A DNA stretch of 64,000 bases, from positions 7,096,501-7,160,500 of the forward strand of contig NZ_JARUBL010000001.1 of the NCBI RefSeq assembly GCF_029626155.1, in the 5' to 3' direction. This stretch comes from Solwaraspora sp. WMMD1047. Lineage in GTDB: Bacteria > Actinomycetota > Actinomycetes > Mycobacteriales > Micromonosporaceae. The translations under genes and the position numbers were made by a program. The notes beneath the pieces were generated by a model, which was not told the DNA's origin, ran no database searches, and saw only the letters and a list, made by a program, of their open reading frames with translations. Positions 6,626 through 21,519 of this stretch are shown one piece after another (the stretch's first letter is position 1; the number at the start of each line of letters is the position of its first letter).

Positions 6626-6669
6626 GAGGGGCCCCGGCCGGGGTGAGAGCCGGTGACTTGGGGCCCCTC
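6626..6669. terminator. Hairpin downstream of the winged-helix gene
   Basis: GAGGGGCCCC at 6626 to 6635 pairs perfectly with GGGGCCCCTC at 6660 to 6669; GAGC/GCTC extends the stem after a one-base bulge. It lies about 30 bases beyond the stop (6697) of the minus-strand winged-helix gene, the expected place for its terminator. There is no T-tail, as is common in actinomycetes. Confidence 0.55.
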
Positions 6670-6696
6670 TGCTCGTTGGCTCTCGCCTTCCTTGGC

Positions 6697-7335
6697 CTAG
6701 CTCGCTTTCGTTGCCCTGTGTTGCGGGCCAATGGTCCGTTCCTCTCCTCGCGCCGCATCGGCGCGATCTTGGATTCGTACGGGCGGACTCGGACGCCCGG
6801 TCCCGTGGTCCGATTGAACATCCGCCCCAGCCTTCACCGGGTAGTGATAGAGACCCTTGCGCTGTCGGGCCAGCCGCCCGCGGCTGACCCAGTATCCGAG
6901 CGCGTTGCTGACCTTGTGAGTTGGCCACTCCACACCGAGCGCCGAAAGACGATTCGCAACATCTGACACGGTGAACCTTTCACCTGGATCTATCACCTGC
7001 CACACGAGTCGCCGCAGCGGCACATCCCGTGCACGCACCGCCCCAACGGAAGTCGTCGCGCCGCTGCCTCCTCCGCTCGATGAGCTGACGGCGGCACCTC
7101 CGGCCATGATCGCTTCGCCATCCCTGGCAAATGCCTCGTCCGGCTCGCGTTCGCCGAGCGACACCTCCCGCCGAGTGACGATCTCCATGCACGCCTCGTA
7201 CAGCCGCTCGGGAACCCGAACGTCGAGGCCAAGCGCGCGAGCCGCGTCTATCGCGGTAGCCACGTCATGCAGCTTCCGCACCACCTCCTCCACCTCGCCG
7301 GAGGTTCCGTCAGCGCCCGTGCTGAGATGAGCCAC
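6697..7335 (-). CDS. Winged-helix domain protein, divergent from the SMC-like ATPase
   Basis: 212 residues. The N-terminal part (EEVVRKLHDVATAIDAARAL to about residue 60) is helical; a serine/glycine-rich linker follows (about 78 to 95); then comes a compact winged-helix (VWQVIDPGERFTVSDVANRL, HKVSNALGYWVSRGRLARQR, KGLYHYP, about 108 to 165). The basic tail after it may be partly disordered. It is probably a DNA-binding protein or specificity subunit. It starts 265 bases from the GTG of the divergent ATPase gene, so the two may be co-regulated or functionally linked. Codon bias is weaker than in the chromosomal part of the window, which suggests acquisition by transfer. Confidence 0.62.
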   Translation of the reverse strand: MAHLSTGADGTSGEVEEVVRKLHDVATAIDAARALGLDVRVPERLYEACMEIVTRREVSLGEREPDEAFARDGEAIMAGGAAVSSSSGGGSGATTSVGAVRARDVPLRRLVWQVIDPGERFTVSDVANRLSALGVEWPTHKVSNALGYWVSRGRLARQRKGLYHYPVKAGADVQSDHGTGRPSPPVRIQDRADAARGEERTIGPQHRATKAS

Positions 7336-7472
7336 TGCTTCCCCCCTTCGCCAATCTTGGACAAGTGAGAACGGACTCTACATCCCGAGAGTTCGCGGGG
7401 CCGCGTGACCCCCTGCCGCACATGTAGCGCGAGACTCATCCCTTGCCAATTAGGACATAACGCTCATGTAGC

Positions 7473-7484
7473 CCCCTGCAGGGG
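7473..7484. promoter_or_regulatory. Palindrome in the divergent promoter region
   Basis: CCCCTGCAGGGG, a perfect 12-bp palindrome, lies in the 265-base space between the winged-helix gene and the ATPase gene, followed by an AT-rich CATATAAG. It is a candidate operator for the winged-helix protein. The rest of 7336 to 7600 shows no gene. Confidence 0.35.
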
Positions 7485-7600
7485 CATATAAGAGCCAATC
7501 CCCACCTTGTCACGTTCGCTAGAGTAGGCACGTCAGGTTCGGCGTTGAGATCGCCGGCAACCATACCGAGATCAAATAGCGAATGCGGAGGAAGCTGCAC

Positions 7601-9535
7601 GTGGCCACTGCGCTGCAGATCTGTCGGCTACGGGTCAAGACCGCACAGGGCTGGCAAGATCCGTATGATCTGGATCAGCCGGTCGTTGCTGTAGTAGGGC
7701 CCGTAGATACCGGGAAGAGCTCACTCCTTGACTGCATTGCCTTCGCTCTGGGTCGGGACATCGACGAATTTCGCGGGGCCGTTGACCGCGAGCTACGCGC
7801 GGTCGAAATAGTTGTTCGCGTTGCATCCGGCGTCTATACGTTGCGGCGTTCTCGCCGGACCCGCTCGTATATAGAGATCCTTGACGCCTCGGGAACTTCG
7901 GAGGGTCGGTTCCCAACCCGTATGCGCGAAGGTGTGCAAACCATTTCGGATTGGCTCTTCCAGCAATTGGGAATCGCTGACTTAATGGCCTCTGTCCGTC
8001 TGCCCGGCGAGAGGCGACTGGGCTTCGCGGATGCGCTCTTTCCTTATTGTTATCTAACGCAGGAAGACATTGATCGGCACGTAATAATGGCGCGACGGGA
8101 GGACGCGACACGCTTGACGACCCTCAAGCTCCTATTCAATCTCACTTCGGCGAAAGCCGAGCGGCTAGCGGGAACGATGCGCGACGTTGACAATGAGCTA
8201 GCAAGGGAAAAGCGAAGGCTGAAGACAATTGGCGACTTCCTCGCCGGTTCTGCGGCAACCCATCCGGATGCAGTTGACCGCGAAATAGAACGGCTCCGCG
8301 AAGCAGAGATGGTTTCCGCCAGTAACTTACTGAAGCTGAGGGCGAAGGCTCGATCCGATAGTCCTGATGCTGATCCCACACGGGAACGCGTCTTCAGCGC
8401 GCGTAGACGCGTGAGCGATGCAGAGCATGCTCTCGACGGGGCTATTCGGAAACGGAGAGCGGTCGAGGACCGGATGGAGCCCGTCAAGAACTCCCTCGAA
8501 GAGCTCGCAGAACTTGAGCATCGTTCCCCTGACTGTCGATCAACACTCCGTATAGCCTTCCGCGAGTGCCCTGCATGCGAGGCTGACATAACCGACCGGA
8601 TTACCTCTCCCGGCCATTGCCATCTTTGTATCCAGCGGCTCCCGGGAGCGGACCATCAAATGGAACGTGAACGGCTGACGCTTGCCTACCAGCGACTTGA
8701 AGCCGAGTTCGACAAGCTATATGAGGAGGAACGCCGCGCTCGGCTAGAGGCCGATGCCGCTCGCCGCGAACTAGAGGTCCTGCTGGATAGCCTCAACCTT
8801 CAGGCCGGCGAGATCGTGGCGCCGCATGTTGACAGCATCGCCGCCGCTGCGGGGGAACTGTCTAGAATCAGAGCCAGCGTGGCCGCCTTGACGCGCGTCC
8901 AGGATGCGCACAGACGTCTAAGAGAGCAATACGATCAGATAAGTGGGAAACAGAAGGAACAGGAGGAGCGACGCAGGAGAAATGTCGGGAGCGCTGACCT
9001 TGAGCGCTTAGAAGATGTCTTGTCCGCCATAAACGGAATCTTCGAGAGTATCGTCAAAGGAATCGAGCTGCCCAACGCAACAGGACAAGCCCGACTGGAC
9101 CCAGAAAGCTTGCTTCCGCTCGTTGACGAGCAAGCCTTCACACGAAGAGGAGGAGGGGCCCGCGCAGCGGTCAGCATCGCATACAGCCTTTCACTACTCA
9201 CTTACACCTTGGAGAACGGGCTTGCAAGACTGCCCGCCCTGTTGATGATCGATTCACCTCAGAAGAATTTTGGAGCCAACAAAGACGATAAGGCACTCGC
9301 CCACCGCGTATATGAACGATTCCTCGATTACATGGGCGAACGGTCTAGTTGGCGGCAGGTAGGGTTACGCCGGCCCTTCCAGGTGATAATAGTTGATAAC
9401 GATCTTCATGCCGACATTCGCAAACGCATCACAGTGCACCAATTCACACGTGATGAAGGGTTCATTCGGGGGTTGACTAATCCGCACGGCAGTCCTGCTA
9501 TCCGACAGCTCGCCATCGACGACGTCGACCGCTAA
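7601..9535 (+). CDS. SMC-like AAA/ABC ATPase with zinc hook
   Basis: About 644 residues. Near the N-terminus is a Walker A motif GPVDTGKSS followed by LLDCIAFALG, typical of RecF/SMC/Rad50-like heads. Long charged coiled coils occupy about residues 175 to 475. Between them sit two CxxC pairs (CPAC and CHLC, about 330 to 350), a zinc hook or zinc ribbon like that at the coiled-coil apex of Rad50. The second head half contains RRGGGARAAVSIAYSLSLLT, a signature-like segment, and LLMIDSPQKN, a Walker B with DSP instead of DE. I start it at GTG 7601 because GCGGAGGAAG lies six bases upstream; ATG 7583 would put that motif inside the gene. GC is low relative to its neighbours. A defence or DNA-maintenance role is inferred from the architecture; the family was not identified. 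Confidence 0.72.
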   Translation: MATALQICRLRVKTAQGWQDPYDLDQPVVAVVGPVDTGKSSLLDCIAFALGRDIDEFRGAVDRELRAVEIVVRVASGVYTLRRSRRTRSYIEILDASGTSEGRFPTRMREGVQTISDWLFQQLGIADLMASVRLPGERRLGFADALFPYCYLTQEDIDRHVIMARREDATRLTTLKLLFNLTSAKAERLAGTMRDVDNELAREKRRLKTIGDFLAGSAATHPDAVDREIERLREAEMVSASNLLKLRAKARSDSPDADPTRERVFSARRRVSDAEHALDGAIRKRRAVEDRMEPVKNSLEELAELEHRSPDCRSTLRIAFRECPACEADITDRITSPGHCHLCIQRLPGADHQMERERLTLAYQRLEAEFDKLYEEERRARLEADAARRELEVLLDSLNLQAGEIVAPHVDSIAAAAGELSRIRASVAALTRVQDAHRRLREQYDQISGKQKEQEERRRRNVGSADLERLEDVLSAINGIFESIVKGIELPNATGQARLDPESLLPLVDEQAFTRRGGGARAAVSIAYSLSLLTYTLENGLARLPALLMIDSPQKNFGANKDDKALAHRVYERFLDYMGERSSWRQVGLRRPFQVIIVDNDLHADIRKRITVHQFTRDEGFIRGLTNPHGSPAIRQLAIDDVDR

Positions 9536-9784
9536 TATCGCGACCGGACGAGTTCCTGCCTCGTCTGCGGTATATGCCTTGCGCGTCGCCATTCTCTTCG
9601 GGTCCCAAACCAGCGCCGATGAAGCGGTGCGCCCCGAACGCCTGCCGACTGCCCGTGCCGGCCTGCAACAGCTTTGATGTCCGCCACGGTGCGTGATGCT
9701 CCCGGTTTTGGACCGCCTCGTCGCCGATCTCGGTCCCACCGCTGCATTGCGCCTAGGGTAATGCCCGGCGGCGCAGGCGGCTGC
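9536..9784. other. Intergenic stretch without identifiable gene
   Basis: Frames here are short, arginine-rich and inconsistent on both strands. I see no hairpin or RNA gene. It separates the ATPase gene from the decayed STAS gene. Confidence 0.4.
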
Positions 9785-10117
9785 TCACCGCTCACGCGGA
9801 GGGGTCTTGCCCTCATCGTCGCCGCCGAGCAGGGCGGGTACGCCGGTGACGTCGAGGACCCGCCGTGCCGGCGGGCTGGCAGTTGATCACCTCAGTCCGG
9901 ACGGCGTTGTCGCTGCTGCGGTGGTAGGTGTCTAGGAGCGTGCTGATGCCTCAGAATCCAGGAAGCTGACCCCGGCGAGTTCGGCGGTCAGCGTCGCCGA
10001 GTGGTGGTCCAAGGCCTCGCGGAGGCCCACACGGAACTCGTCGGCGGTGCAGGTGTCCACCTCGCCGGCCACGACCAGCCGCGTGCCCGTCTCGTCGGAC
10101 AGCATGCTGCTCGCCAA
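9785..10117 (-). pseudogene. STAS-domain anti-anti-sigma factor, frameshifted
   Basis: The N-terminal part is in one frame (TRLVVAGEVDTCTADEFRVG, then ELAGVSFLDSE), the middle in a second (GISTLLDTYHRSSDNAVRTE, then VINCQPA) and the end in a third (RRVLDVTGVPALLGGDDEG to the stop at 9785). In order they rebuild a complete STAS domain of about 110 residues, the normal length of SpoIIAA-like anti-sigma-factor antagonists, including the segment around the phosphorylatable serine (FLDS) and the C-terminal LDVTGVPALL helix. Two single-base shifts are needed, near 9945 and near 9875. It is either a recent pseudogene or an intact gene spoiled by sequencing errors. Confidence 0.65.
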
Positions 10118-10193
10118 GACAGCCGACGACCCTCACGGCGACTCGGCACCACCAAAAAAATCGACCGCGCCCGGTCGAGATTGATAAGCATTG

Positions 10194-10244
10194 GCCATAT
10201 CTTGCTCCGCAAGTTTGGCCGCCAATTGCCATATCTTGCTCCGC
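10194..10244. repeat. Direct repeat, 17 bp, 34-bp period
   Basis: GCCATATCTTGCTCCGC occurs at 10194 to 10210 and again at 10228 to 10244, with different bases between. It lies in non-coding DNA upstream of the decayed STAS gene. It could be a pair of regulator or recombinase binding sites, or a small tandem duplication. Confidence 0.6.
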
Positions 10245-10249
10245 GACCG

Positions 10250-10722
10250 AAGGCGCGTACGCAGATCCGGTAACCGGTGCTACAACTTGCTGGCTCCGGT
10301 CTGGCCTTTACGGGAACTGTCACCGTAACCGTGCTACGGGCACGGACCAGCCCGTACGGAACGGTACCGCACGGCACGGCCGGCGTGCAGCACCCGGGCT
10401 GCGACGACACGCGGCGCGGCCCGGGTGTCGGTGCCGTCCGCCTCGCCGCTGCGGGGCCGGTAACCCCTGCTCCCGGCGTTACCAGCCGCTACCCGTAGCG
10501 CCGTTGCACCCCACCGGGCGCCGGTAACGCCCCGGTGGGGAAACCGCTTCGACGCGAATGAGACGGCACGAACATGCCAACTTCCTCACCCCTATTTCCC
10601 GGCCCGTGCCGGTCTCTCTCGTCCCGTTCCACCGGGCGCCGGAAACGGCCGTTACCGGCGGCTACGGGCAACGCGGGTGGTAACGCCCGCGCGTCATTCT
10701 CAACCCACGGAAGGCGAACCCC
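10250..10722. other. Non-coding stretch rich in GGTAAC/GTTACC words
   Basis: No convincing gene. The words CCGGTAAC, CCGTAACC, GGTAACCCC, CGTTACC and GGTAACGCC recur on both strands at irregular spacing through this segment, together with the hairpin at 10509 to 10540. It lies upstream of two small genes and could be a replication, transfer or regulatory region of the element; this is inference. Confidence 0.3.
10509..10540. terminator. Imperfect hairpin
   Basis: CCCCACCGGGCG at 10509 to 10520 pairs with CGCCCCGGTGGGG at 10528 to 10540 with a single bulged C; the loop is CCGGTAA. No T-tract follows. Terminator-like. Confidence 0.4.
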
Positions 10723-10797
10723 ATGAACAGAACACAGCGGACCCGACGAGCGGCATTCACAGCGGAGGATGATGGCCACAAGCCGGACGACACCTGA
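10723..10797 (+). CDS. Small ORF, 24 residues, upstream of the conserved hypothetical gene
   Basis: ATG 10723 is preceded by GGAAGG at an eight-base spacing, a good ribosome binding site. It encodes MNRTQRTRRAAFTAEDDGHK followed by PDDT and overlaps the start of the next gene at 10769 in another frame. It could be a leader peptide coupling translation of that gene. Too short for any family assignment. Confidence 0.35.
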   Translation: MNRTQRTRRAAFTAEDDGHKPDDT

Positions 10798-11242
10798 CCC
10801 GCGCCGTCGCCCACGAGGCGACCGGTCGCCGGTTCCGGGCGCTGATGCACCGGACCGCGACCCCACACCCGACCATCTCCACGAGTCCACGACCGGCCAG
10901 CCCAACGCGCGGGGGGTGTTACAGCTGGCCACCCACCCCGTTACCGCCCGCACGACAGCCCGGATCCCACCCCGACCAGACCAACCAGCCACGTCCGGCC
11001 GCGACGGACGAGCCGGCGAGCAACCAGAAGTACAGGCGCTCATGCGGCAACGGCTCGCCGCGATGGCCGCACCCCGCGACACCGACGACCCCGAGTTGGC
11101 GGCGCTGCGGGCCATCCTGCGCGACGAGTCATTGATGGCACACGTCACCGCGAACGTGGACCGGTGGCCACCGCTCACGGCCGATCAGCGCGCCACCGTG
11201 GCCGCGCTGCTTGGCCGGCGTCGGTACCGCGACAGAAGGTGA
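10769..11242 (+). CDS. Conserved hypothetical protein of mobile elements
   Basis: 157 residues. The first 80 are proline/arginine-rich and low in information. The C-terminal 65 form a helical domain (EVQALMRQRLAAMAAPRDTD, LAALRAILRDESLMAHVTAN, VDRWPPLTADQRATVAALLG). A second, damaged copy of this domain lies at 17711 beside the integrase, so the family travels with such elements. ATG 10769 and 10772 are possible starts; GGAGG directly precedes 10769, which is unusually close, so translation is probably coupled to the 24-codon ORF. A strong hairpin follows the stop. Function unknown. Confidence 0.62.
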   Translation: MMATSRTTPDPRRRPRGDRSPVPGADAPDRDPTPDHLHESTTGQPNARGVLQLATHPVTARTTARIPPRPDQPATSGRDGRAGEQPEVQALMRQRLAAMAAPRDTDDPELAALRAILRDESLMAHVTANVDRWPPLTADQRATVAALLGRRRYRDRR

Positions 11243-11257
11243 GCGCTCCGCCTTCCC

Positions 11258-11292
11258 GCTTCCGCTTCCGTCGAGCAGGCGGAAGCGGAAGC
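11258..11292 (+). terminator. Strong hairpin after the conserved hypothetical gene
   Basis: GCTTCCGCTTCCG at 11258 to 11270 pairs perfectly with CGGAAGCGGAAGC at 11280 to 11292 around a nine-base loop. Position 16 bases after the stop at 11242 fits an intrinsic terminator without a T-tract. Confidence 0.65.
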
Positions 11293-11928
11293 AGGAGGTG
11301 ACCTCGCACGAATGGAATCTGCCCCCGCGGCAGCGCTGTTGACCGGGTCCGGCTGTCCTCTCCGCGAGGTCGGTGTTGCCACTGGCTTCCCGGCAGCACC
11401 AACGGGGCCGGCGCGGGCGGTATCGCCGCCTGGCGCGCTGCGGATCGGACGGCGCGACGCGAGACTTTAACGCGGAACGGGCCGTGGGTGGCAGCAGGGG
11501 CGGAGGGCCTTGGTGTTTCGCGGGCAGTAGGTGGCTGTCTCGCTTGTGGTGTTGGTAGCGCCGCTGCGCTGTGATGGCGGTGGACGGTCGCCCTTGTCGC
11601 AGAGCATCCGGAGGCGGTAGTGCTCCCCGGAGGGCCGGTTGCGTCTCTTGGCTCACCGGCCGCTAAGGCTGGGCTTTCCGAACGGGGGCGAGGGGTGGAT
11701 CTGCTGACGGTTCGGCGCCAGGCGGAGATGTCCGTGTTGAACAGAGTTGGAAGTATTAGTTGATTTCGGCATCTATCTGCGGATAGAGGCGACTTCGGAG
11801 TTGTGCGATATGACGGTTGGCACCGTGGCACACATTGACGACGAATACTGGCCGTGCTTGTGTTGTTTCGACTAGTCATCATCGAGGCCATGCGCATGTG
11901 TCATCCGTCGTGAAGATCGGAGTATCGC
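11293..11928. other. Intergenic region, no gene identified
   Basis: About 640 bases. Frames on the minus strand are open but arginine/serine/proline-rich and unlike real proteins. The last 150 bases become AT-richer (around 11745 to 11930, including AGTATTAGTTGATTT) and probably contain the promoter of the secreted-protein operon. Confidence 0.4.
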
Positions 11929-12312
11929 ATGAGACGATTGGCGGCGGTCGCGATGGCGGCCGTCTGCGTGGTTTCCGTTGTCGCTGTTTCTAGTCCCGCG
12001 TGGGCGAATCCGTCGGGTTGTTCCCAGGGCAATACCACGATCAGCCAGAGTGGCGGCTACATGACCGCGTGGAACGACGCAGAATGTTCTTCGAGCGCGA
12101 CTCGCACCTTCCGCATCGAGATCAAGAGGGACGTGGCGGTCCTGCCCGACCCCGTGGTGTCCAGCTACGATGACTATTGGACGGGCAAGTTCTACTATGC
12201 TGAGACCAGCAGTTGTGACGGCGGCCGGAGCGCCAACTACTACGGTCGTTCGTTTTTCACGTCCCATCCAACCTACGTGGACACCAGCAATCTCATGGTG
12301 AACACCTGCTGA
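11929..12312 (+). CDS. Small secreted protein with four cysteines
   Basis: 127 residues. A classical Sec signal peptide (MRRLAAVAMAAVCVVSVVAV, then SSPAWA) predicts cleavage after residue 26. The mature chain of about 100 residues has exactly four cysteines (31, 53, 96 and the last residue 127), is rich in Ser/Tyr/Thr, and ends in cysteine, which suggests two disulphides and a compact extracellular domain. GGAG lies eight bases before the ATG. It is followed after 24 bases by an ABC ATPase and two overlapping membrane-protein genes. No family recognised. Possible roles are a secreted effector, a peptide handled by the transporter, or a sensor; all are inference. Confidence 0.7.
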   Translation: MRRLAAVAMAAVCVVSVVAVSSPAWANPSGCSQGNTTISQSGGYMTAWNDAECSSSATRTFRIEIKRDVAVLPDPVVSSYDDYWTGKFYYAETSSCDGGRSANYYGRSFFTSHPTYVDTSNLMVNTC

Positions 12313-12336
12313 CCTGATGTGATCGGGGGGCCTGCC

Positions 12337-13092
12337 ATGGAAGAGGCGGCGCTTGGGCGCGGACTGGCCCAGCGGTACGGGAAGCGGAATGTGTTTCGCG
12401 ATCTCGATATTGTCGTTCCGCCAGGGGTGACGGTTCTGCTGGGGCCGAATGGTGCGGGAAAGACGACACTGTTGCACACCATCGTGGGTCTCAAGCGTCC
12501 GGTGGCGGGAAGTCTTCACGTTCTCGGTTGTGATGTGCTGCGTCGCGGCGGTCTTCGGGCCGTCGCGGCGCGGGTCGGTTTCCTGCCGCAGGTTGTGTCG
12601 CACTATCCCGGTTACACCGTCCGGGAGTTCGTCACCTACGCCGCCTGGCTCAAGGGGGTACCCGGGCGGACCATCGGCGCGAAGGTGGATCGGGCGCTCG
12701 GCTTGATGAGCCTGTCCGGGCGGGCCGGATCCCGGATGGGCAGCCTGTCGGGTGGGCTGCTGCGCCGGGCCGGGATCGCGCAGGCGATCGTGCATGAACC
12801 GGCGCTGCTCATCCTCGACGAGCCGGCCGCAGGGCTCGACCCCGCGCAGCGCATCGAACTGCGCCGCGTCCTGCGAACGATCGCCGGTGAGTCCTCGGTG
12901 CTGGTCAGCACGCATGTGGTGGACGATGTGCGGCATGTCGCGGACACCATCGTCGTGCTCCGTGAGGGCGCGGTGGCGTTCACCGGGACGGTCGCCGGGC
13001 TGGAAGGTCTGGCCGGGCCGGGGGTGGACGGGGACAGCGATCTGGAACGCGGCTACCTGACCGCGTTGCGGCGCCCGGGGGTGCCCTCGTGA
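12337..13092 (+). CDS. ABC transporter ATP-binding protein
   Basis: About 251 residues from ATG 12337, chosen because GGGGGG lies seven bases upstream; the frame also contains an ATG at 12319. Walker A GPNGAGKTT (near residue 36), Q-loop region FLPQ, signature LSGG (in GSLSGGLLRR), Walker B LLILDEPAAGLD and H-loop STHVVDD are all present, so the ATPase should be active. The length and single domain fit the DrrA/CcmA-type exporter ATPases that pair with separate permeases. The stop overlaps the next start (GTGA), so translation is coupled to the permease. Confidence 0.88.
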   Translation: MEEAALGRGLAQRYGKRNVFRDLDIVVPPGVTVLLGPNGAGKTTLLHTIVGLKRPVAGSLHVLGCDVLRRGGLRAVAARVGFLPQVVSHYPGYTVREFVTYAAWLKGVPGRTIGAKVDRALGLMSLSGRAGSRMGSLSGGLLRRAGIAQAIVHEPALLILDEPAAGLDPAQRIELRRVLRTIAGESSVLVSTHVVDDVRHVADTIVVLREGAVAFTGTVAGLEGLAGPGVDGDSDLERGYLTALRRPGVPS

Positions 13093-14345
13093 CCCTGATC
13101 GGTATCGAGCTGCGCCGAGGGCCGGGCCTGTGGACCCTGCCCGTGCTGACGGTGGTCGGTGTGTTCATGGCCCGCGCGCAGTTGAGCACGGACACCGTCT
13201 GGTCGTATGCCACGGGCGCGGTGACGAGCGCCCCGATGTTGATGGCCCCGCTGGCGGTGGGCGTCGCCGCGTGGGCCGGGGGCCGCTCCCAGCGTCGCGG
13301 AGTACGCCATGCCTGGCTGCTGGCCGGGCGCGATCCGGTACAGGCGCCACTGATCGAGGCCGGTGTGCTGGTGGCCTGCGCCGCCGTGGCGTACATCCTG
13401 GTCGCTGTGGTGACGCTGCTACCCACGGCGGCTGCCGCGACGTGGGGCGGCCCGTTCTGGTGGTGGCTGGCCTCAGCCGGGGCCGGGTTCGCGGCCATGG
13501 TCGCTGTCGCCTACGGCGTGGGGGTGCTGGTGCCGGGCCGATTCACCCCGTTCGCCGTCGCGCTGCTCACTTACCTGGCCACAACCTGGAACCTCGGCAA
13601 CAGCGGCGCCGACTACGCGATGTTCCCGACTACCGTCGAGTTGATCGCACCGTTCAACGCACCGCACACCCCGACAATGCGAGGGCAGGTGCTGTGGTTC
13701 ACCGGCTCGGCACTGTCGGCCCTCACGCTGATCACTGTCAAGGTCCGCTCGTCTGCTTGGCTGATGTTCCCTGCGGTCGCGCTGTCAGTCACCCTGACCG
13801 CCGCCGGCGCCGCCTTGATCGTCAACGAGAACGGCCGCTACGTCGACCTGAACCGTCACATCACCTGGTCCTGCACGGGTAATTCACCCCAGGTGTGCAT
13901 CCACCCCGCCTTCGCCACCAGCCTCCCCGCGATCAGTGAACAGGCACAGGCCATCGAGCGGCGGCTGACCTCCACGCCTTTCGCCATCACCCGGGTCGAG
14001 CAGCGACCCCGAGGCGTCGGCGGCCAACCCACCCCCGGCGCCGTCGCCTACGCACTCGACACACCCACCGCCGACCACTACCACCGCGCCGGGCTCGACA
14101 TCGCCATCGCCGCCCTCGGCGTCGACTCCTGCGCTCGCAGACGCGACACCGACGCCCACGCCATGGCCCAACTGCTCGTCGCCTGGACCGTCGGCGACGA
14201 GACACTGTTCACCCCCCGCGACCCCATCCAACAACAGGCGAGACACCAGTTCCTCAACCTCCCGCTGACCGGACAACAGCAATGGCTGACCACCCACGCC
14301 AACGCCATCCGCACCTGTTCCCTGACTTCCCACACGTTCACATGA
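13089..14345 (+). CDS. ABC transporter membrane protein with extracytoplasmic C-terminal domain
   Basis: 418 residues, GTG start overlapping the ATPase stop. About six hydrophobic segments occupy residues 10 to 255 (for example VLVACAAVAYILVAVVTLLP and FTPFAVALLTYLATTW). After the last one comes a soluble domain of about 160 residues with a cysteine pair (SCTGNSPQVC, followed by IHPAF) and a further cysteine near residue 350. This large tail is unusual for a DrrB-like permease and probably faces outside, where the operon's secreted protein would also be. The end overlaps the next gene by four bases (ATGA). Transport substrate unknown. Confidence 0.72.
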   Translation: MTLIGIELRRGPGLWTLPVLTVVGVFMARAQLSTDTVWSYATGAVTSAPMLMAPLAVGVAAWAGGRSQRRGVRHAWLLAGRDPVQAPLIEAGVLVACAAVAYILVAVVTLLPTAAAATWGGPFWWWLASAGAGFAAMVAVAYGVGVLVPGRFTPFAVALLTYLATTWNLGNSGADYAMFPTTVELIAPFNAPHTPTMRGQVLWFTGSALSALTLITVKVRSSAWLMFPAVALSVTLTAAGAALIVNENGRYVDLNRHITWSCTGNSPQVCIHPAFATSLPAISEQAQAIERRLTSTPFAITRVEQRPRGVGGQPTPGAVAYALDTPTADHYHRAGLDIAIAALGVDSCARRRDTDAHAMAQLLVAWTVGDETLFTPRDPIQQQARHQFLNLPLTGQQQWLTTHANAIRTCSLTSHTFT

Positions 14346-14962
14346 CCGGCCCACGCCTGCTCCTGAAATCCCGCCGGACAGCGCCGCTCCTGCTAGCAGC
14401 CGTCGCCGTCGCCGTCGCCTCCCGAGAATTCGGCGGCCAGCACCTGCTCATCGGCGCCACCCAACCGGTCCCGCTGCCGTGGGCCGCGCTCCTGCCCGCG
14501 ATCACCGCCTACCTCACCGCCGTCGCGGCCTGGTCGACCCTGCCGCTACAGGAACACCTCGCCGTCCACCGCACCGACCGCTACGACCTGCTCCACCTCA
14601 CCACTGCCGCCCTCATCGGCGCCACACTGGTCGCCTGGGCTGCCCAACCACTCACCGGCACCATCACCACGCAAGGCGCCGTCCGCAACTACCTCGGACT
14701 CCTCGGCTACTCCCTGATCGGCATCGCCGTCTTCCACCCCACCATGGGCTGGACCATCCCCACCACCCTGCTCACCACCGGCCTCGTCACCGCCGGCACC
14801 CGCACCAACCTGCCCCTACTGGACTGGCCCGCCCGCCCCGACAACAACCCCACCTCCTGGACCATCAGCACCACAATCCTCCTCACCGGCCTAGCCACCT
14901 TCACCAGCCACAACCGCCGACGCGCACTCGCGGCGCGAACAGCCCGCACCCAACCCGAGTAA
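14342..14962 (+). CDS. Polytopic membrane protein of the ABC operon
   Basis: 206 residues from ATG 14342, inside the ATGA overlap with the upstream permease; a longer frame from 14282 would be read-through. Five or six hydrophobic segments (LLLAAVAVAVA, ALLPAITAYLTAVAAW, TAALIGATLVAWAA, YLGLLGYSLIGIAVF, TILLTGLATF). It is probably the second membrane subunit of the transporter. It ends just 46 bases before the insertion sequence, so any further downstream gene of the operon may have been separated by that insertion. Confidence 0.68.
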   Translation: MTGPRLLLKSRRTAPLLLAAVAVAVASREFGGQHLLIGATQPVPLPWAALLPAITAYLTAVAAWSTLPLQEHLAVHRTDRYDLLHLTTAALIGATLVAWAAQPLTGTITTQGAVRNYLGLLGYSLIGIAVFHPTMGWTIPTTLLTTGLVTAGTRTNLPLLDWPARPDNNPTSWTISTTILLTGLATFTSHNRRRALAARTARTQPE

Positions 14963-15008
14963 TTCCTCAGAATGACTAGCCTCCACGGGAATCCGACGAC
15001 CGCAACCC

Positions 15009-15033
15009 TGGGCTTGACCCGGTTTCACGGACA
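15009..15033. repeat. Left terminal inverted repeat of the IS3 element
   Basis: 25 bases, pairing with 16303 to 16327 at 23 of 25 positions; starts with TG. Preceded by the target duplication ACCC. Confidence 0.85.
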
Positions 15034-15050
15034 GGGTCGGTAAGTTGATC

Positions 15051-15950
15051 TCACGCTACCTTGCTGACGGGCCTGCTGGAGTAGGCGGCGGCTTCGTATT
15101 CGGCCGGGCTGAGGTAGTCCAGGGTGGAATGGCGGCGGCGGGTGTTGTACCAGCCCTCGGTCCAGTCGAAGATCGCCGCACGCGCGGCAGCGCGGGTCGG
15201 CCACGCCCGCCGGTCGAGTAGTTCGGTTTTGATCGTGGCGAAGAACGATTCCGCGACGGCGTTGTCCCAGCATTGACCCCGGGCGCCGACCGACAGCAGC
15301 ACCTGATGCTGGCTGGCGAGTCGGGCGTACTGGGTGCTGGTGTATTGACATCCACGGTCGCTGTGAAAGATCACCGGACCGGTCGGACGCCGGCTGGTGA
15401 GCGCGTTTGTCAGGGCTTGGGCAGGCAGGTCGGTACGGAGGTGGTCGGCGGTGGCCCAGCCGACCACCCGCCGCGACGCGATGTCGATCACGGTGGCGAG
15501 GTACAGCCAGCCCTCCCAGGTGTGGATGTAGGTGATGTCGCCGCACCAGCGGGTGTCGACCTGGCCGGCGGCGACGTCGAAGTCCCGACCGATCAGGTCC
15601 GCCGACAACGCCGCACCCGGGTCGGGCACGGTCGTGGTCCGCCACCGCTTCGGCGTGCGGCCGCACAGCCCGACGCCCCGCATCAGCCGGGCGACCCGCT
15701 TGCGGGAGTGCCGCCGACCCTGGGCGGCGAGTTCGGCCCGGACGCGGGGTGCGCCGTAGGTGCCGGCCGAGCCGGCGTGGATGTCTGTGATACGGGCAGT
15801 CAGGTCGGCGTCGTCGCGTTCCCGCCGCGACGGGCCACCGGTGCGGTGCTGGTAGTAGGCGGACCGGGAGACCTCCAGCAGCTCGCAGGAACGCTTCACG
15901 TTCCCGCCGGGCCGCGCCTTCTCCGCCTCGATGAACGGGTACACGTTCAC
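15051..15950 (-). CDS. IS3-family transposase OrfB (DDE integrase domain)
   Basis: 299 residues. An N-terminal HTH_21-like segment (CELLEVSRSAYYQHRTGG to TYGAPRVRAEL) precedes the rve catalytic core with D in WCGDITYI, D in IFHSDRGCQY and E in AVAESFFATIKTE, giving an intact DDE triad with the characteristic D-35-E spacing. It catalyses strand transfer of the element. The GTG start overlaps the OrfA stop (GTGA), so it may be made by coupling or as an OrfAB fusion by frameshifting. Confidence 0.95.
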   Translation of the reverse strand: MNVYPFIEAEKARPGGNVKRSCELLEVSRSAYYQHRTGGPSRRERDDADLTARITDIHAGSAGTYGAPRVRAELAAQGRRHSRKRVARLMRGVGLCGRTPKRWRTTTVPDPGAALSADLIGRDFDVAAGQVDTRWCGDITYIHTWEGWLYLATVIDIASRRVVGWATADHLRTDLPAQALTNALTSRRPTGPVIFHSDRGCQYTSTQYARLASQHQVLLSVGARGQCWDNAVAESFFATIKTELLDRRAWPTRAAARAAIFDWTEGWYNTRRRHSTLDYLSPAEYEAAAYSSRPVSKVA

Positions 15951-16258
15951 CGGGTCTCCCGCACGAAGAAAGCCGTGGCCCGTTTGAGGATGTCAACATC
16001 CTCGCGTAGCCGGCGGTTCTCCCGCCGCAGCCGCGCCAACTCGTCGCGTTCCTCGCTGGTCAACCCGTCCGACCGGGTGCCGGCGTCGAGGTCGGCCTGC
16101 CTGACCCACTCGCGTACCGCGGTCTCGGTCAGGTCGAAGTCCCTCGCGACCTGCACGATCGTCCGGTCACCCCGCCGGCATACCTCGACGATCTCCGCCT
16201 TGAACTCCGGCGTGAACGCCCTGCGCGGCCGGCGTGGTTTCTTGCCCATGCCTTCCAT
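15947..16258 (-). CDS. IS3-family transposase OrfA
   Basis: About 103 residues from ATG 16258, preceded by GGGAGG at nine bases; the frame is open up to 16312, which would run to the inverted repeat. A helix-turn-helix (FTPEFKAEIVEVCRRGDRTI, QVARDFDLTETAVREWVRQA) and a C-terminal leucine-zipper-like helix (RDELARLRRENRRLREDVDI) are typical of IS3 OrfA, which binds the ends and pairs with OrfB. Confidence 0.92.
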   Translation of the reverse strand: MEGMGKKPRRPRRAFTPEFKAEIVEVCRRGDRTIVQVARDFDLTETAVREWVRQADLDAGTRSDGLTSEERDELARLRRENRRLREDVDILKRATAFFVRETR

Positions 16259-16302
16259 GATGAACATCCTCCCGAGGAGCACACAGCCCCTCTGATCTGG
16301 GA

Positions 16303-16327
16303 TGTCCGTCAAACCGGGTCAGGCCCA
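16303..16327. repeat. Right terminal inverted repeat of the IS3 element
   Basis: Complement of the left end with two mismatches; ends in CA and is followed by ACCC. Confidence 0.85.
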
Positions 16328-17126
16328 ACCCGGACAGCTTCGCCGGCAGCGCGGGCAACCCCTCCCGGAAAGCGACGGCAACGCCTCACCTCCCGGGTGA
16401 GGCCGGGAAAGGTCTGGTGGGGTGTGGCTGCCACGACGCTGGTGGGTCGGTGGAGGGCAAGCCGGCCCCGCTACGTCGAACCGTCGACCCCGACGGGCCG
16501 ACGTAGCCGGCGGGCGACGTCGTCCAGGGCGAGCATCCAGCAGTCCGCCGGGCCTACTCGCGTAGCCCAGACTGTTGGTGGCTTGTCTTGCCGGTTGGCG
16601 GACGTCCGGTCCCGCTATCAATATGTCCGTTATAAGACAGAAGAGCGTTTCACCTTATCGATCGTTAACCTCGAATGTGGGGTCGGTGGCTGTGTGGCTC
16701 CCTCGGCCACCGGCCCCGCCTGATGCGGCCTTGGAGTGCATCAGGGCCGGTCGAGGGCCCGCCAAGGGCTGGGGGGCAGGGGCTGGTGCGGCAGTTACCC
16801 GCTCGTTGTGTGCGCCGGACTGTCAGGGTGGCGGTAGCCGGTGGTGGTGGTGTTGGCGTGGAGGGTGAAGCGGGCGTCGTCGACGAGGCGGTCGACGCGT
16901 ACGGAGCGGCCGTCACGCAGAGCCCATGCACAGGTGGGACCGGTCGGTGACGGTGGGGGCGTGGCGCATGGCGTCGGTGGTGGTGCCGGCGGCGCGCACC
17001 CTCTCTCCCACGAAGTGAAGACGGATCTAAGGTTGCAAGCATGTCATCCGACTCCAGAGGGATTTTGGCCCCTACGAGGAGATCGAACCTCGACATGTAG
17101 CGGCGGCTGCTCGCCTGACCGCTGCG
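16328..17126. other. Degenerate region with gene fragments
   Basis: No intact gene. On the minus strand an N-terminal-like piece starts at ATG 17096 (MSRFDLLVGAKIPLESDDML), and another frame further on reads TCAWALRDGRSVRVDRLVDD then ARFTLHANTTTTGYRHPDS before a stop near 16798, as if one gene had been broken by frameshifts. A 9-bp inverted repeat GCTACGTCG/CGACGTAGC lies at 16470 and 16499. The rest shows nothing I can assign. Confidence 0.35.
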
Positions 17127-17462
17127 ATGACCGTAATGTCGCCCCTATCCGTGATGACCATCATTGGCGCCGGGTACCACATGGCGACGATTGCCGGGGC
17201 GACTGCCAAGGCGAGCGAGTTCCCGGACTTGGTCGACCACCACACGACCTTCGAAGAGCCAGCGATCTTCACCCACGACACTGTCGAGTTCCTGGCCCGC
17301 TACATGGAAAGTTTGGCTGAGTCGGCGCGTCGGCGCCCGCACCGGTATACCTACCGCGATCCAGACGAGTTGGCGCACTGGATGGACCGGTGCGCGAAGG
17401 ATCTTCGGACTGCAGCGGCCACCATCAGGGACCAGCCGAAGAATCGGCCCTTGGAGCAGTAG
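17127..17462 (+). CDS. Hypothetical protein, 111 residues
   Basis: An open frame with balanced amino-acid content (KASEFPDLVDHHTTFEEPAI, EFLARYMESLAESARRRPHR, DELAHWMDRCAKDLRTAAAT). The C-terminal half is helical and charged. ATG 17127 has no obvious ribosome binding site; ATG 17154 is an alternative. It is not part of an evident operon. No family recognised. Confidence 0.45.
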   Translation: MTVMSPLSVMTIIGAGYHMATIAGATAKASEFPDLVDHHTTFEEPAIFTHDTVEFLARYMESLAESARRRPHRYTYRDPDELAHWMDRCAKDLRTAAATIRDQPKNRPLEQ

Positions 17463-17710
17463 CCCGTTCAGGTGGGCGCCCGGCTGTTCCCTTCGACCGC
17501 TCTGCGTGCGGTCCAACCGCTGCGGAGCGGTCCGCGTGTCGCTGCCTGTCGGGGCCGGCGACGGGCGAGACATCCCACCTCCGCCCGACATGCCGTTTGG
17601 CGGCAAGCGCCAAGGGACGGAACAGTCGGTAGCCCACGCGGCTCTGTGGTAGGGCCGTTCCCGGCCAGAGCGGGCGGACCAGTCAGGCCGGGCGGAACCG
17701 GCCGGTGGGC
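17463..17710. other. Intergenic region, no gene identified
   Basis: Only short inconsistent frames. The last part (from about 17650) may be the decayed 5' portion of the pseudogene that follows. Confidence 0.35.
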
Positions 17711-17933
17711 GAGCGGAGGTTCAGGCGCTCGTGCGCGAACGGCTCGCGGCGATGGCCGCACCCCCGCGACACCGACGACCCGGAGGTGGCGGCGCTGCGG
17801 GCGATCCTGCGTGATCAGGCGTTGATGGGCCCACGTCACCGCGAACGTGGACCGGTGGCCACCGCTGACCGACGAGCAACGCGCCACCGTGGCCGCGCTC
17901 CTCGGCCGATGCCGACACCGCGGCAGCCGGTGA
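17711..17933 (+). pseudogene. Damaged second copy of the 10769 gene
   Basis: Base by base this is the same domain as the 3' part of the gene ending at 11242 (GAGGTTCAGGCGCTCGTGCG against GAAGTACAGGCGCTCATGCG, and so on to the shared ATCAGCGC/AGCAACGC...GCCACCGTGGCCGCGCT end). It has one extra C in a C-run (CACCCCCGC against CACCCCGC, near 17760) and a second change at ATGGGCCCACGTC against ATGGCACACGTC (near 17828), so no frame covers it. It sits directly before the convergent integrase. Confidence 0.75.
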
Positions 17934-17952
17934 GTGAGCAGCGCCGGCTTAC

Positions 17953-17994
17953 ACGCGAAGGGGTCACCCCCGAATCGGGGTGCCCTCTTCGCGT
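17953..17994. terminator. Bidirectional terminator before the integrase stop
   Basis: ACGCGAAG at 17953 to 17960 pairs with CTTCGCGT at 17987 to 17994, and an inner CACCCC/GGGGTG stem continues the hairpin around CGAAT. It lies between two convergent genes. Confidence 0.6.
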
Positions 17995-18009
17995 GCTGCC
18001 GGAACGCGG

Positions 18010-19608
18010 CTACACGGCCGGTGCGCCGAGTCCGTGCTTAGGCTCGATGCGCAGCGCGGCCGGGTCGAACCCGCGTCCCTTGCGTCCGGACGGCAGGATT
18101 GTCACGGTCATCAGCCGGTCGATGACGACCCGCTTGTCCGCCAACGGCGCGTCCCGCCACGCCTTCACGGGATCGGGCGCGTTCACGAACCGGGCCAGCG
18201 GGTCGCTCCCCGCGTTGACGTTCAGCTGCTCGTCGATTTCCGCGATCATCGCGGCGCACTGACGGCGGGCCTGGCGCGCGTACTCGCGCGTCTCCAACCC
18301 GCGCAGTTCATCGTCCAGGATCCGCGTCAACCGTTGCCCGATCGCGGCCCGCTGCGCGCGCAGTCCCTCGGCGTCCACCTCCGGTGTCGGCTCGGCCAGC
18401 AACTCGAACGCACGCGGGTGCGTCAACGCGTACAACACATGCGCTACCACGGCAGCGTCGACATGAGCCTGATTGCGGGTCAGGTGGCCGAACTCCTTAC
18501 ACCGGTACCGAGGCACCCGACCCCCCAGGGTCACCTGAACCGTCATCGGCCGGTCCGTGTCCGTCCCCGGCGGGGTACAGATCCCGCACCGGTACACCCC
18601 CGTACCCAGCCAACGCGGGGCTGCGCCCGGCCCCACCCGCCGGGACGGGTCGGTCAACAGATCCCGCACCGCGAAGAACACCGCAGGCTCCGTGATCGGA
18701 TCCCACGGCGCGGTCACACCCTCCAAAATCTCCCCGTCGTGCACCATGAAACCGGCGTTACGCGGACGCAACAGGATCTCCCGCACCGTCTCGGCGCTCC
18801 ACGTCCCACCAGCCACCGTCGCCACCTTCGCCGTACGCACCTCCGCGGCCAACGCCCGCAACGTCACACCCTCCAACACCCGCTGTGACCAGTCCGCTAT
18901 CAGGCCACACTCACTGTCAATCCGCGTGACACCCGCGACGCAGTCACGCCCGCCGTGCCACGCACACACATACGTCTGCGGGTCGCCGCCGCCGACCTGC
19001 GGCGGACCGCTGCAGAACCCGAACGGACGCCGACCTCCACCCCACTGACCGTTCATCGCCTGCCGCAACCGCTCCGCGCTGACCCGACGCGACGTGTCCC
19101 GACTCGACTTGTTCCCCATCGTCACCATCACCCGCGCCAAGGTGATCTCCGCGTCCGTACCACCATCGGTGAACCGCAACGAACCCGACAACGACTGCGC
19201 GTTCGCCCTCACCTCCTGCATCACATCGATCATGTCTTCCAAATCGCGGGGATCACGAACCGTCCGATCCAGATCCACCGCCAACACCGCCTGAGACTGC
19301 CCACTGCGCAACCGATCCAACAACCGCCGGAACCCCGGCCGGATCACCCGCAACACCGTCGACCCGTCCGGCAACCTCACCTTGCGCCGCTTGAACGCCG
19401 ACGCCGGTTTCGGCTTGCCACCCGCCATATCGTTCTCGACAATGACCTCACCAACCGTCCAGCCAAGCTGACCCGCACGACCCACAAGCAACCGCTCGTG
19501 CTCCACGAGCCCCTTGCTCACCCCATCGCTGTTCAGATCCTCAACCCGAAGATCGGACAAGCGCAGGTACAGATCCGCAACCACCGTTGGAGGAGTAACA
19601 ATGCCCAT
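18010..19608 (-). CDS. Large serine recombinase (integrase)
   Basis: 532 residues. The resolvase domain has YLRLSDLR (catalytic serine about residue 18), then AVDLDRTVRDPRDLEDMIDV and the arginine-bearing SRDTSRRVSAERL region. A recombinase DNA-binding domain follows (RRPFGFCSG to about 300), with a zinc ribbon (CGIC, then CKEF) and a long coiled-coil-containing C-terminus (AEIDEQL). This is the architecture of phage- and ICE-type large serine integrases that insert DNA between short attB and attP sites. ATG 19608 lies about 20 bases from a truncated chromosomal gene, so this gene marks the right end of the element. A terminator is shared with the convergent pseudogene. Confidence 0.93.
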   Translation of the reverse strand: MGIVTPPTVVADLYLRLSDLRVEDLNSDGVSKGLVEHERLLVGRAGQLGWTVGEVIVENDMAGGKPKPASAFKRRKVRLPDGSTVLRVIRPGFRRLLDRLRSGQSQAVLAVDLDRTVRDPRDLEDMIDVMQEVRANAQSLSGSLRFTDGGTDAEITLARVMVTMGNKSSRDTSRRVSAERLRQAMNGQWGGGRRPFGFCSGPPQVGGGDPQTYVCAWHGGRDCVAGVTRIDSECGLIADWSQRVLEGVTLRALAAEVRTAKVATVAGGTWSAETVREILLRPRNAGFMVHDGEILEGVTAPWDPITEPAVFFAVRDLLTDPSRRVGPGAAPRWLGTGVYRCGICTPPGTDTDRPMTVQVTLGGRVPRYRCKEFGHLTRNQAHVDAAVVAHVLYALTHPRAFELLAEPTPEVDAEGLRAQRAAIGQRLTRILDDELRGLETREYARQARRQCAAMIAEIDEQLNVNAGSDPLARFVNAPDPVKAWRDAPLADKRVVIDRLMTVTILPSGRKGRGFDPAALRIEPKHGLGAPAV

Positions 19609-19635
19609 GCATCAACTATGTGCTAGAACCCGGGT
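19609..19635. other. Probable attachment-site junction (element right end)
   Basis: Left of this point is the integrase start; right of it an AfsR-like protein begins abruptly in its P-loop (PGPGKTTFALHW) with an in-frame TAG at 19624 to 19626. The crossover therefore lies in about 19610 to 19635, containing CCCGGGTCCCGGCAAGACC. The matching junction should be outside the window to the left. Confidence 0.6.
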
Positions 19636-21519
19636 CCCGGCAAGACCACGTTCGCGCTGCACTGGGCGCACCGGGTGGCGAGCGAGTTCCCCGACGGCCA
19701 GCTCCACGTGAACCTGCGCGGGTACGACGCGGAGGACGTGGTGGATCCGGCCGACGCCCTCTGCGGCTTCCTGGAGGCGCTCGGCGTGCCCCATGCCCGG
19801 ATACCGGCCAGCATCGAGGCCCGGATCGGGCTCTACCGCAGCCGGCTGGCCAATCGCCGGATCCTGGTGGTGCTCGACAACGCCCGCGACTCCGCCCAGG
19901 TGCGACCGCTGCTGCCCGGCACGGGCGGTTGCGTCGTCGTGGTGACCAGCCGGGACCGGCTCTCCGACCTGATCGCGACCCAGGGCGCCCGACCGCTGAG
20001 CCTGGACGTGCTCACCCCGGACGAGTCGATGAGCCTGCTCGCCGGCCGGATCGGTGCCGGCCGGCTCGCCGCCGAGCCGGCCGCGGTCGCCGACATCACC
20101 GGCACCACCGGCCGGCTTCCGCTCGCCCTGTCGATCGTGGCGGCGCGCGTCGCCCTGCACCCCGGGTTCCCGCTCGACACCTTCGCCGCCGAGCTGCGCT
20201 CGGACGAGGCGCGGCTCGACGCCTTCTCCGACGGTCACGTCCGGGCCGCCTTCTCCTGGTCCTACCTGGCGCTGAGCCAACCCGCGGCCCGGCTGTTCCG
20301 GCTGCTGGGGCTGCATCCCGGGCCGGACATGACCGCGGACGCCGCCGCCGCGCTCGACGGCCGGCCCGAGGCCACCGTCACCCCGCTGCTGCGGGAGCTG
20401 ACCCGGCTGCACCTGCTGACCGAACACGAGCCCGGCCGGTACGCCTTCCACGACCTGCTGCGGGTGTACGCGGCCGAACTGGTGGAGTCGTCGGAGGGCG
20501 CCGACGAACGGCGGGCCGCCCGGCAGCGGCTGTTCGACCACTACCTGCACAGCGCTTACCCGGCCGCCGTGCTGCTGCAGCCCCAGTGGTTGACGATCGA
20601 ACCCGTTCCGCCGCTGCCGTCGAACTCCAGCCCGACAATGAAAGATCATGATTCCGCGCTCGCCTGGTTCGCGGCGGAGCACCGGGTGCTGCTCCGCCTC
20701 GTCCGGCAGGCCGCCGCCGAGACCGGCTTCGAGGCGTACGCCTGGCAGCTCGCCTGGGCGTTGACCACCTTCTTCGCCCCGCGCGGCCTGTGGCAGGACC
20801 AGCTCGCCGCCCAGCAGGCCGCGCTGGCCGCGGCGGAGCGCAGCGGCGACCTCGCCGGCCAGGCCATCGCCAACCGGTTGCTGTCCCGCGCCGAGACCCG
20901 CCTCGGCGACCTCGACTCGGCGGAGAACCGGCTGCGGCGCGCACTGGAGCTGCACGGACAACTCGGCGACCCGACCGGCCAGGCGCAGACGCTGCACAAC
21001 CACGCCGAGCTCTGCTATCTGCGCGGCGATCCGGCCGCCGGGCTGGCGCTCGGGCACGAGGCGCTGCGGCTGTACCGGCTGGCCGGGAACCGCGCCGGAG
21101 CGGCGCGGACGTTGAACGCGATCGGCTGGCTCTACGCGGCGACCGGCGACTACGCCCGGGCCATCGAGAGCTGCACCGAGGCGCTGGCGGAGCAGCGCGC
21201 GAGCGACGATCGGAACGGTCAGGCCGCCACCCTGGACAGCCTGGGGTTCGCCTACCACCGCCTCGGGGAGCACGACCGCGCGGTCGACTGTTTCGAAGCG
21301 GCCATCCCGCTCTTCCGCGACTCCGCCGACCGCTACCACGAGGCCGAGACCCTGCTGCGGCTCGGCGACACCCGCGAGTCGATGTCCGACCCGGCCAGGG
21401 CCGCCGAGGCGTGGCGGAGCGCCGCCCGCATCTTCGACGAACTCGGCGATCCGGCGGCCGGGGACGCCCGGCAACGGCTGGCGCGGCTGCGGCCCGCCCC
21501 ACCACTCGAATCTGCGTAG
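19627..21519 (+). pseudogene. AfsR/SARP-type regulator, 5' half lost by integration
   Basis: About 630 residues remain: the end of a P-loop (GPGKTTFALHW), an NB-ARC ATPase (ILVVLDNARD, VVVTSRDRL, GRLPLALSIVAARV), a winged-helix region (HDLLRVYAAELVE) and at least five TPR-like repeats (DSAENRLRRALELHGQLGDP, GAARTLNAIGWLYAATGDYA, ATLDSLGFAYHRLGEHDRAV). AfsR-family proteins normally carry an N-terminal SARP DNA-binding domain and a bacterial transcriptional activator domain; both are missing and replaced by the integrase end. The first in-frame start is GTG 19675, after the P-loop, so a product would lack ATP binding. Probably inactive while the element is inserted. Confidence 0.8.

Follow-up and report, generated by a model that had tools for sequence, protein, structure and literature searches.

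A clade of large serine integrases appears to use, as its bacterial attachment site (attB), the DNA coding for the Walker A (P-loop) motif, a reading to which we assign a probability of about 0.88. The case described here lies in a stretch of 64,000 nucleotides from Solwaraspora sp. WMMD1047, hereafter the window (G000:C1:7096501-7160500, where Gxxx denotes genomes, G000 being the genome of this strain, and Lxxx denotes fetched loci), which carries the right 19.6 kb (window 1..19641) of a 65,382-bp integrative element. Members of the clade split their host genes precisely at the codon for the Walker A lysine, their attB sites and element attachment sites (attP) have conserved shapes, their targets are many, and the same enzyme is found in different genes. 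Integrases are usually described as choosing either one gene or a near-random short word, and a first-pass annotation of the window had proposed, as an unusual target, the P-loop codons of a pleiotropic regulator. The position within P-loop codons of a coding sequence stands, whereas the restriction to one pleiotropic regulator does not, as the Walker A codon of unrelated P-loop genes is used; the apparent unusual target is best read as one case of a motif-targeted integrase clade.

The integrase gene occupies positions 18010..19608 of the window on the minus strand and encodes 532 aa with Resolvase and Recombinase domains (Pfam, 9.5e-8 and 2.5e-6); the catalytic-serine motif YLRLSD can be read by eye near its N-terminus. 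Next to it, on the plus strand, lies the 3′ half of a split NB-ARC/TPR regulator gene (K-T-T-F-A-L-H-W..., 19642..21519), recognized by TPR_12 (4.1e-24) and by an NB-ARC match (2.3e-4) that reaches 20.9 bits, under the 23.5 cut-off, the P-loop part being absent from this half. The frame opens abruptly inside the P-loop at 19627 (N-P-G-P-G-K-T-T-F-A), directly after an in-frame TAG (19624..19626, plus strand) followed by NPGPGKTTFALHW, and lies 18 bases from the integrase start codon; the first-pass annotation had noted the TAG and put the distance at about 20 bases. Positions 19614..19641 (plus strand), AACTATGTGCTAGAACCCGGGTCCCGGC, represent the left arm of attP, now the left side of the right junction (attR), as judged from the inverted-repeat arms and random-place control set out below, and TGTGCTAGAA within this arm is also found beside several related integrases. 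The crossover dinucleotide would be AA, bases 1-2 of the Walker A lysine codon AAG (19642..19643, plus strand), 33 bases from the integrase start codon; the core CAAG of one related element (G288) and the centre of the attP dyad both point to it. The attR sequence is GGTCCC-GGCAAG-ACCACG.

The left end of the element and the 5′ half of the gene lie 45.7 kb to the left of the window. When the 80 kb left of the window were searched by tblastn with a generic, self-typed AfsR-like query, a single stretch ending in a P-loop was found, namely the 5′ half of the regulator (...LTQEDLAAATGLSVRSIRDVESGRV...FVGRRDELAVLDAGLAEGSAGAKNVIIFAVSGMAGIGK), in which an XRE-type helix-turn-helix (HTH), a linker and ...SGMAGIGK are followed immediately by PDTGM and a stop codon, the stub frame stopping five residues past the lysine. 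The left junction (attL) reads GGCATC-GGCAAG-CCCGATACCGG, and the element between attL and attR spans genome positions 7050760-7116141 (G000:C1). The first-pass annotation was thus right to place the right end of an integrative element within AfsR-like P-loop codons, its minimum length of 19.6 kb is now replaced by a true length of 65,382 bp, and the missing 5′ half is indeed at the other end, ending at the same lysine codon. The annotation had also proposed looking for a CCCGGGTCCCGG-like copy next to the 5′ half; as a shared core this sequence is rejected, since attL and attR have only CGGCAAG in common as an unbroken run, and CCCGGGTCCC is part of the element's own attP arm.

Joining the two halves gives a protein of 759 aa that matches intact genes elsewhere continuously across the junction. 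Over residues 10-629 the joined protein is 73% identical to L138, 73% to L140, 72% to L139 and 67% to L144, all of which read through the junction; a comparison with an intact gene had been suggested in the first-pass annotation. The empty site is seen by gene, not by locus, because the neighbours of the split regulator were not found within the 1.5-kb flanks of these relatives. The missing flanking genes would also fit an assembly error or later rearrangement, in which the 5′ half, 65 kb away, derives from another P-loop gene, as would the N-terminal 80 residues, which are XRE-type here and SARP-type in the best relatives of the 3′ half. We consider this very unlikely: within the 5′ half, residues 82-134, which cover the linker and the P-loop, have L140, L138, L144 and L139 as their best relatives among 49 loci compared, the same group that heads the list for the 3′ half (L138, L139, L140; 49 loci compared), and nine other elements have halves that match by inspection. 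Identity to L138-L140 is 61-67% left of the junction (53-59 aligned residues) and 74-75% right of it.

The N-terminal part of the split gene matches HTH_31 (Pfam, E 5.4e-15), an XRE-type HTH, and is without BTAD. The N-termini of L138, L139, L140 and L144 are SARP-type by eye, and for L138 also by Pfam (Trans_reg_C plus BTAD, the latter at 2.4e-36); for L139, L140 and L144 the name is our own assignment. Residues 1-80 of the joined protein therefore look like an N-terminal domain swap, with an XRE-type HTH here and a SARP-type domain in the closest intact relatives. The first-pass annotation had inferred a lost SARP domain: the BTAD part of the self-typed query is indeed unmatched at E 1 in the window and the 80 kb to its left (no whole-window BTAD profile scan was made), but the missing head proved to be HTH_31. 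The SARP guess was reasonable for the family and wrong for this gene, because its nearest intact relatives do have SARP-type N-termini. The element splits this XRE-HTH/NB-ARC/TPR regulator and has probably inactivated it; no working protein is expected, because neither half retains the rest of the NTPase domain.

Relatives of the integrase were searched in 354 genomes of the family, with at most four candidates scored per genome, so that copies may be missed. This yielded 24 near-full-length relatives with identities of about 42-100%, comprising 23 loci (L013-L035) and G319:C5, which was examined later; the G104 integrase is N-terminally degenerate, yet counted. Not counted are L036-L042 and the other listed relatives whose identity is under about 42%, L064 (35%) and four partial copies (G306:C1:5319811, G064:C74, G232:C11 and G105:C197). 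Among the matches listed, the Walker A lysine codon of a P-loop gene adjoins the integrase in 21 of the 24. At 19 loci the DNA past the integrase start reads GGN/GTC-AA[G/A]-AC in frame with a P-loop protein, G104 being the 20th, and at the 21st, G319:C42, the orientation is opposite, with the 5′ half (...EGTAGIGK) on the integrase side. In L066 (G650) and L035 (G319:C42) the P-loop site is used in this opposite orientation, and the core on the integrase side is TT, not AA. All ten integrases scanned have Resolvase (PF00239) and Recombinase (PF07508) domains above cut-off, and clade integrases have, by eye, the N-terminal R-x-S motifs YLRLSD, LARLSD or YVRLSE.

The 21 targets consist of 11 NB-ARC regulators, five UvrD-like helicases, two ComM genes, one AAA ATPase, one EF-Tu paralogue and one kinase-like gene. 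Pfam was run on one target of each non-NB-ARC kind and returned a UvrD-like helicase match at 5.5e-5 (below cut-off), GTP_EFTU at 2.6e-51, Mg_chelatase at 8.7e-65 and AAA at 1.6e-26. The remaining names are our own assignments by eye or recall, namely NB-ARC for all but the window's own gene, helicase for all but G168 and the window's own, ComM for G214 and for the outgroup described below, and kinase-like for G260. Outside the family, 394 class-level genomes gave three further relatives at E 1e-40 besides the integrase of the strain itself. Two of them, L065 and L066, both from another family, lie in the P-loop of a T2SSE/CpaF-like ATPase (T2SSE by Pfam, presumably CpaF) in opposite orientations to each other, and L064 sits in a helix-hairpin-helix gene.

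This range of targets bears on the simplest alternative, a single-site element whose integrase is specific to one regulator gene and whose position in the P-loop is a coincidence. Many serine integrases use one site, and a local outgroup (L038-L042) keeps to one site in one gene in five of five cases (the N-terminus of ComM by eye; four were placed by protein pattern and L040 by eye). The relatives in our clade, which include an identical pair and a 98% pair, are instead found at the same codon of different P-loop genes, and we regard a single-site enzyme as most improbable.

The identical pair is G286 and G158 (Micromonospora chalcea DSM 43026, L043): their integrases agree at 534/534 residues and the adjoining 6.64 kb of element at 99.5%, while the 3′ halves of their target genes, both regulators, are just 33% identical. 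The integrases of G304 (in a regulator) and G306 (in a helicase) agree at 523/532 residues, and the pairs G214/G260 (94%) and G239/G291 (93%) likewise lie in differing targets. Target switching would therefore need little or no enzyme change. Four integrase clusters at 93% identity or above hold two target kinds each and none exceeds three, the benchmark for multi-targeting being that a cluster drawn at 90% identity occupies more than three target gene clusters drawn at 50%. In a quick tree, from which G104 and G319:C5 are excluded, a clade of 22 has an SH-aLRT support of 99, the NB-ARC label switches at least four times on starred branches, and G105, G319 and L064 form long branches. Some close integrases do share a target class, such as G094 and G341 in helicases, which would suit a stepwise process, each lineage keeping to a single P-loop gene and moving to another only now and then. 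The differing targets of the identical pair and of the three pairs at 93-98% speak against such fidelity, and we think it unlikely.

Ten elements, 19.9-65.4 kb in size, could be closed at both ends: G000 (65.4 kb), G286 (31.4), G168 (24.0), G304 (24.5), G306 (32.3), G288 (19.9), G323 (31.3), G094 (24.7), G051 (39.2) and G142 (26.0). In all ten the 5′ half ends in G-K at attL and the 3′ half starts at the same lysine codon at attR. The halves fit each other by inspection as XRE-NB-ARC genes in G000, G304, G288 and G323, as what we take to be SARP-type genes in G286, G051 and G142, and as helicases in G168, G306 and G094. For G286, G288, G304 and G306, blastn with the attL of the window's own element gave the same attL place. 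No attL was found for G322, G291, G214, G239, G064, G341, G260, G158 and G137, where contigs are short or elements longer, and none was sought for G104. In G288, attP reads GTCAAG and attB reads GGCAAG, which narrows the shared core to CAAG.

The two arms of attP form an inverted repeat about the AA of the lysine codon, with 14-18 of 28 positions complementary in each of the ten closed elements. At 2000 random places per element the mean was 6.6-7.6 complementary positions, and the observed value was reached 0-5 times. On the attB side, right halves (n=20, without the inverted G319 and the non-P-loop loci) have T at +11 in 20/20 and G at +13 in 19/20, and left halves (n=10) have GG at -18/-17 and at -9/-8 in 10/10. 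The right arm of attP supplies a T after the lysine in G168, G304, G306, G094 and G142, where the stub thus retains G-x4-G-K-T in form; the remaining five closed elements have K-P there. In the same five elements the right arm starts with GACC, as if attP itself imitated Walker A.

How often such sites would be met by chance was judged from the fetched stretches. Among 3,638 windows of 290 bases, the attR search pattern is present in 170 (4.7%); when it must also be in frame with GK[ST] and a reading frame of 150 aa or more, the number is 36 (1.0%, att sites included), as against 19/23 beside integrases. A 31-bp attB-like pattern has 36 sites in the strain's own genome and none reversed; 29 distinct sites of the 36 were inspected (30 loci, as L114 and L115 are the same site), all of them encode G-x4-G-K-T, that is Walker A, and 25 of the 30 printed loci pass a crude open-frame test. 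An attB weight matrix run on 1.21 Mb of fetched DNA (65 loci) with a threshold of 14 bits gave 30 matches, 26 of them Walker A (10 of these being att sites); among non-att matches, 16/19 are Walker A and three are not, and used attB sites score 21-50 bits when omitted from the matrix. For 20 distant serine integrases the N-terminus was located in 12, and none of the 12 has a forward core within 150 bases; at three distant control loci CTTNCC occurs within 150 bases, but without a Walker A reading.

Several points weigh against a Walker A-directed clade. Three of the 24 relatives (G133, G105 and G319:C5) are not at a Walker A site: the core in G133 is AC, one base off, G105 retains AA and reads G-N-P in a weakly beta-lactamase-like gene, and the target of G319:C5 has no Pfam match. 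Neither the kinase-like target of G260 nor the 5′ half at G319:C42 has a Pfam match, the partial copy G064:C74 ends in DNA that is not from a P-loop gene (the other three partial copies cannot be judged), and outside the family only three relatives were seen, two at a P-loop. Both ends are in hand for only 10 of the 21 elements, the others having attR alone or, in G319, the inverted junction alone. Fit of the reading frame decided which attL was taken in the closed elements; ranked on arm score only, that attL comes first in seven, is tied in G000 and is the runner-up in G286 and G168. The attB columns from +1 to +5 and the GG at -3/-2 were fixed by the search patterns and are not independent evidence, and among the controls 8/20 loci cannot be judged and the detector recovers just 16/21 true cases.

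The integrase at G319:C5 (L186), a 44% relative, has a CCAAGCC core in a gene that we take, by eye, to be 13E12-repeat-like.

Loose multi-targeting, in which the enzyme merely has a short GC-rich preference around AAGAC and Walker A prevails as the word is rare elsewhere and frequent in P-loop genes, would require no selection for the motif. The AA core retained in the non-P-loop target of G105 and the core of G133, one base off, are in its favour, as are the own-genome pattern sites inspected, all Walker A, so that any enzyme favouring the word would land there. The shared GG at -18/-17 and -9/-8 and T at +11 extend beyond a 5-bp preference, although Walker A codons would give these anyway. 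The two explanations differ in evolutionary cause, not in mechanism, and we hold loose multi-targeting to be possible, though distinctly the less probable account.

For a clade directed to Walker A DNA, we propose the following mechanism. The inverted-repeat attP would recombine, at the AA of the invariant-lysine codon, with an attB of roughly GGN-NNN-NCC-GGN-NNC-GGN-AAG-ACN-NNN-NTN-GNN. Integration would leave the host gene as two pieces, an N-terminal stub that ends ...G-K and a 3′ remnant that starts with that K, as seen in the DNA of ten elements. Recognition would take place at the level of DNA: P-loop codons in GC-rich actinobacteria are nearly uniform as DNA and recur in dozens of genes, so that one integrase would have many attB sites in each related host, as the pattern sites in the strain's own genome suggest for that host and, by extension, for others. 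The inserts that survive would then be the ones in P-loop genes that the host can spare, for the most part paralogues of regulators and helicases. The G064 genome has three EF-Tu genes, of which the split one is not the strongest match, which is consistent with a survival bias towards dispensable paralogues.

At least one element also brings a copy of the gene that it splits. The G094:C13 element has an intact helicase beside its integrase (21051-23054), 62% identical to the 3′ half of the split gene and 69% to its 5′ half; the P-loop (Walker A) codons of this copy are altered (recoded). In G104, where the element is incomplete, a 95% target copy, perhaps inside the element, lies 1.8 kb from the integrase (G104:C1:186084-187493). 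We reject the idea that elements generally carry a rescue copy of their target, as these are two of 20 examined and no copy was found in the other 18, the window's own element included, nine of the 18 elements being incomplete. The wider proposal is that, in the course of evolution, the lineage has made a universal protein motif its landing site, dispersed in the genome and independent of the host, with any P-loop gene of a GC-rich host a potential attB, much as P-loop inteins do through a different chemistry, and that some elements (G094) bring a recoded copy that turns disruption into replacement; for this the chances seem to us evenly balanced.

The cargo of the window's own element, from a profile scan that took in part of its open reading frames (ORFs), includes a YcaO protein, an S15 peptidase, two ABC transporters with membrane domains, a FecCD permease, two Peripla_BP_2 proteins, Fur, an Fe/Mn-SOD, an alanyl-tRNA synthetase and a peptide deformylase. 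The alanyl-tRNA synthetase is a second copy, the other lying at 2953724. The YcaO/ABC/FecCD/Fur/SOD set resembles a metal-uptake or peptide-product cluster, and the synthetase and deformylase look like self-resistance copies. A second case of tRNA-synthetase cargo may be the 1052-aa ORF at 12302-15460 of the G168 element, which by eye we take to be isoleucyl-tRNA synthetase-like. Two Replic_Relax proteins (PF13814) are encoded on the plus strand of the window, at 2452..3360 (6.9e-12) and 3609..4487 (1.7e-53), and in the G288 element Replic_Relax is accompanied by DUF2637 and a TrwB/HerA-like ATPase; on account of these genes the elements may be capable of conjugation or mobilization. Nine of the ten closed elements have a homologous ORF 0.3-3.8 kb inward of attL, the one in G288 being DUF2637. 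Near the integrase, at 15051-16312 of the window, the element contains an IS3-like transposase (rve, HTH_21) with a partner-like second ORF. An unoccupied attB-like site (33357..33387, plus strand) lies 13.7 kb from attR, in the Walker A codons of a UvrD-like helicase ORF (31572-34940; UvrD-helicase 4.9e-9).

If the clade does choose its sites by motif DNA, this would account for the entry of a single element into many hosts and genes, would predict landing sites in any genome, and would offer a natural integrase whose specificity can be dissected by synonymous codon changes. It would also predict the repeated knock-out of NB-ARC/AfsR-type regulators in antibiotic-producing actinomycetes by such elements. 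Inteins and integrases, mobile elements whose enzymes are unrelated, would then have converged on the same lysine codon.

No viral contig with the integrase was confirmed, a genome-contig scan returned one locus (M. chalcea DSM 43026, L043), and at E 0.01 a search of solved structures gave no match. The 246 phage and 14 plasmid records are all under 60% identity, so that the search did not yield a named phage with a free attP; among the matches listed, identity is at most 28.5% for phage records (30 of 246) and at most 33.8% for plasmid records. The integrase of phage R4 is a 26% relative. No earlier report of Walker A-targeting serine integrases was found in the open-licence literature, where absence is weak evidence.

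The clade has in common with the phiC31, Bxb1 and R4 integrases the Resolvase and Recombinase domains, short attP and attB sites, a probable 2-bp crossover and integration into coding sequence. Integrases of the phiC31/Bxb1 type have one preferred attB; unlike in phiC31, Bxb1 and R4, attB here is a motif common to many unrelated genes. Among the Cp36/TndX-like multi-targeting recombinases, as here, close relatives enter many distinct target genes, according to the study that describes them (Durrant et al. 2022, PMC10083194). The worked example given there has a TT-core site with T/A-rich ends, DUF4368 is present in 63% of that clade, and some multi-targeters are described as having motifs more complex than AT-rich words (PMC10083194). 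In contrast to the Cp36/TndX-like clade, the site here is GC-rich Walker A coding DNA, and DUF4368 had no match at E 0.1 in any of the ten integrases scanned. ComM/Mg-chelatase genes are given there as the target of 12.4% of predicted site-specific integrases, and its main text is without the words 'Walker', 'ATPase' and 'ATP-binding' (PMC10083194). Two members of our clade (G291 and G214) lie in ComM at its Walker A, whereas the local outgroup lies at the ComM N-terminus. P-loop inteins, such as TerL1-a of mycobacteriophages, are inserted between the invariant Lys and Thr of Walker A (PMC5050341). The insertion spot is the same, but inteins remove themselves from the protein by splicing and leave its function intact, whereas here 20-65 kb of DNA splits the gene.

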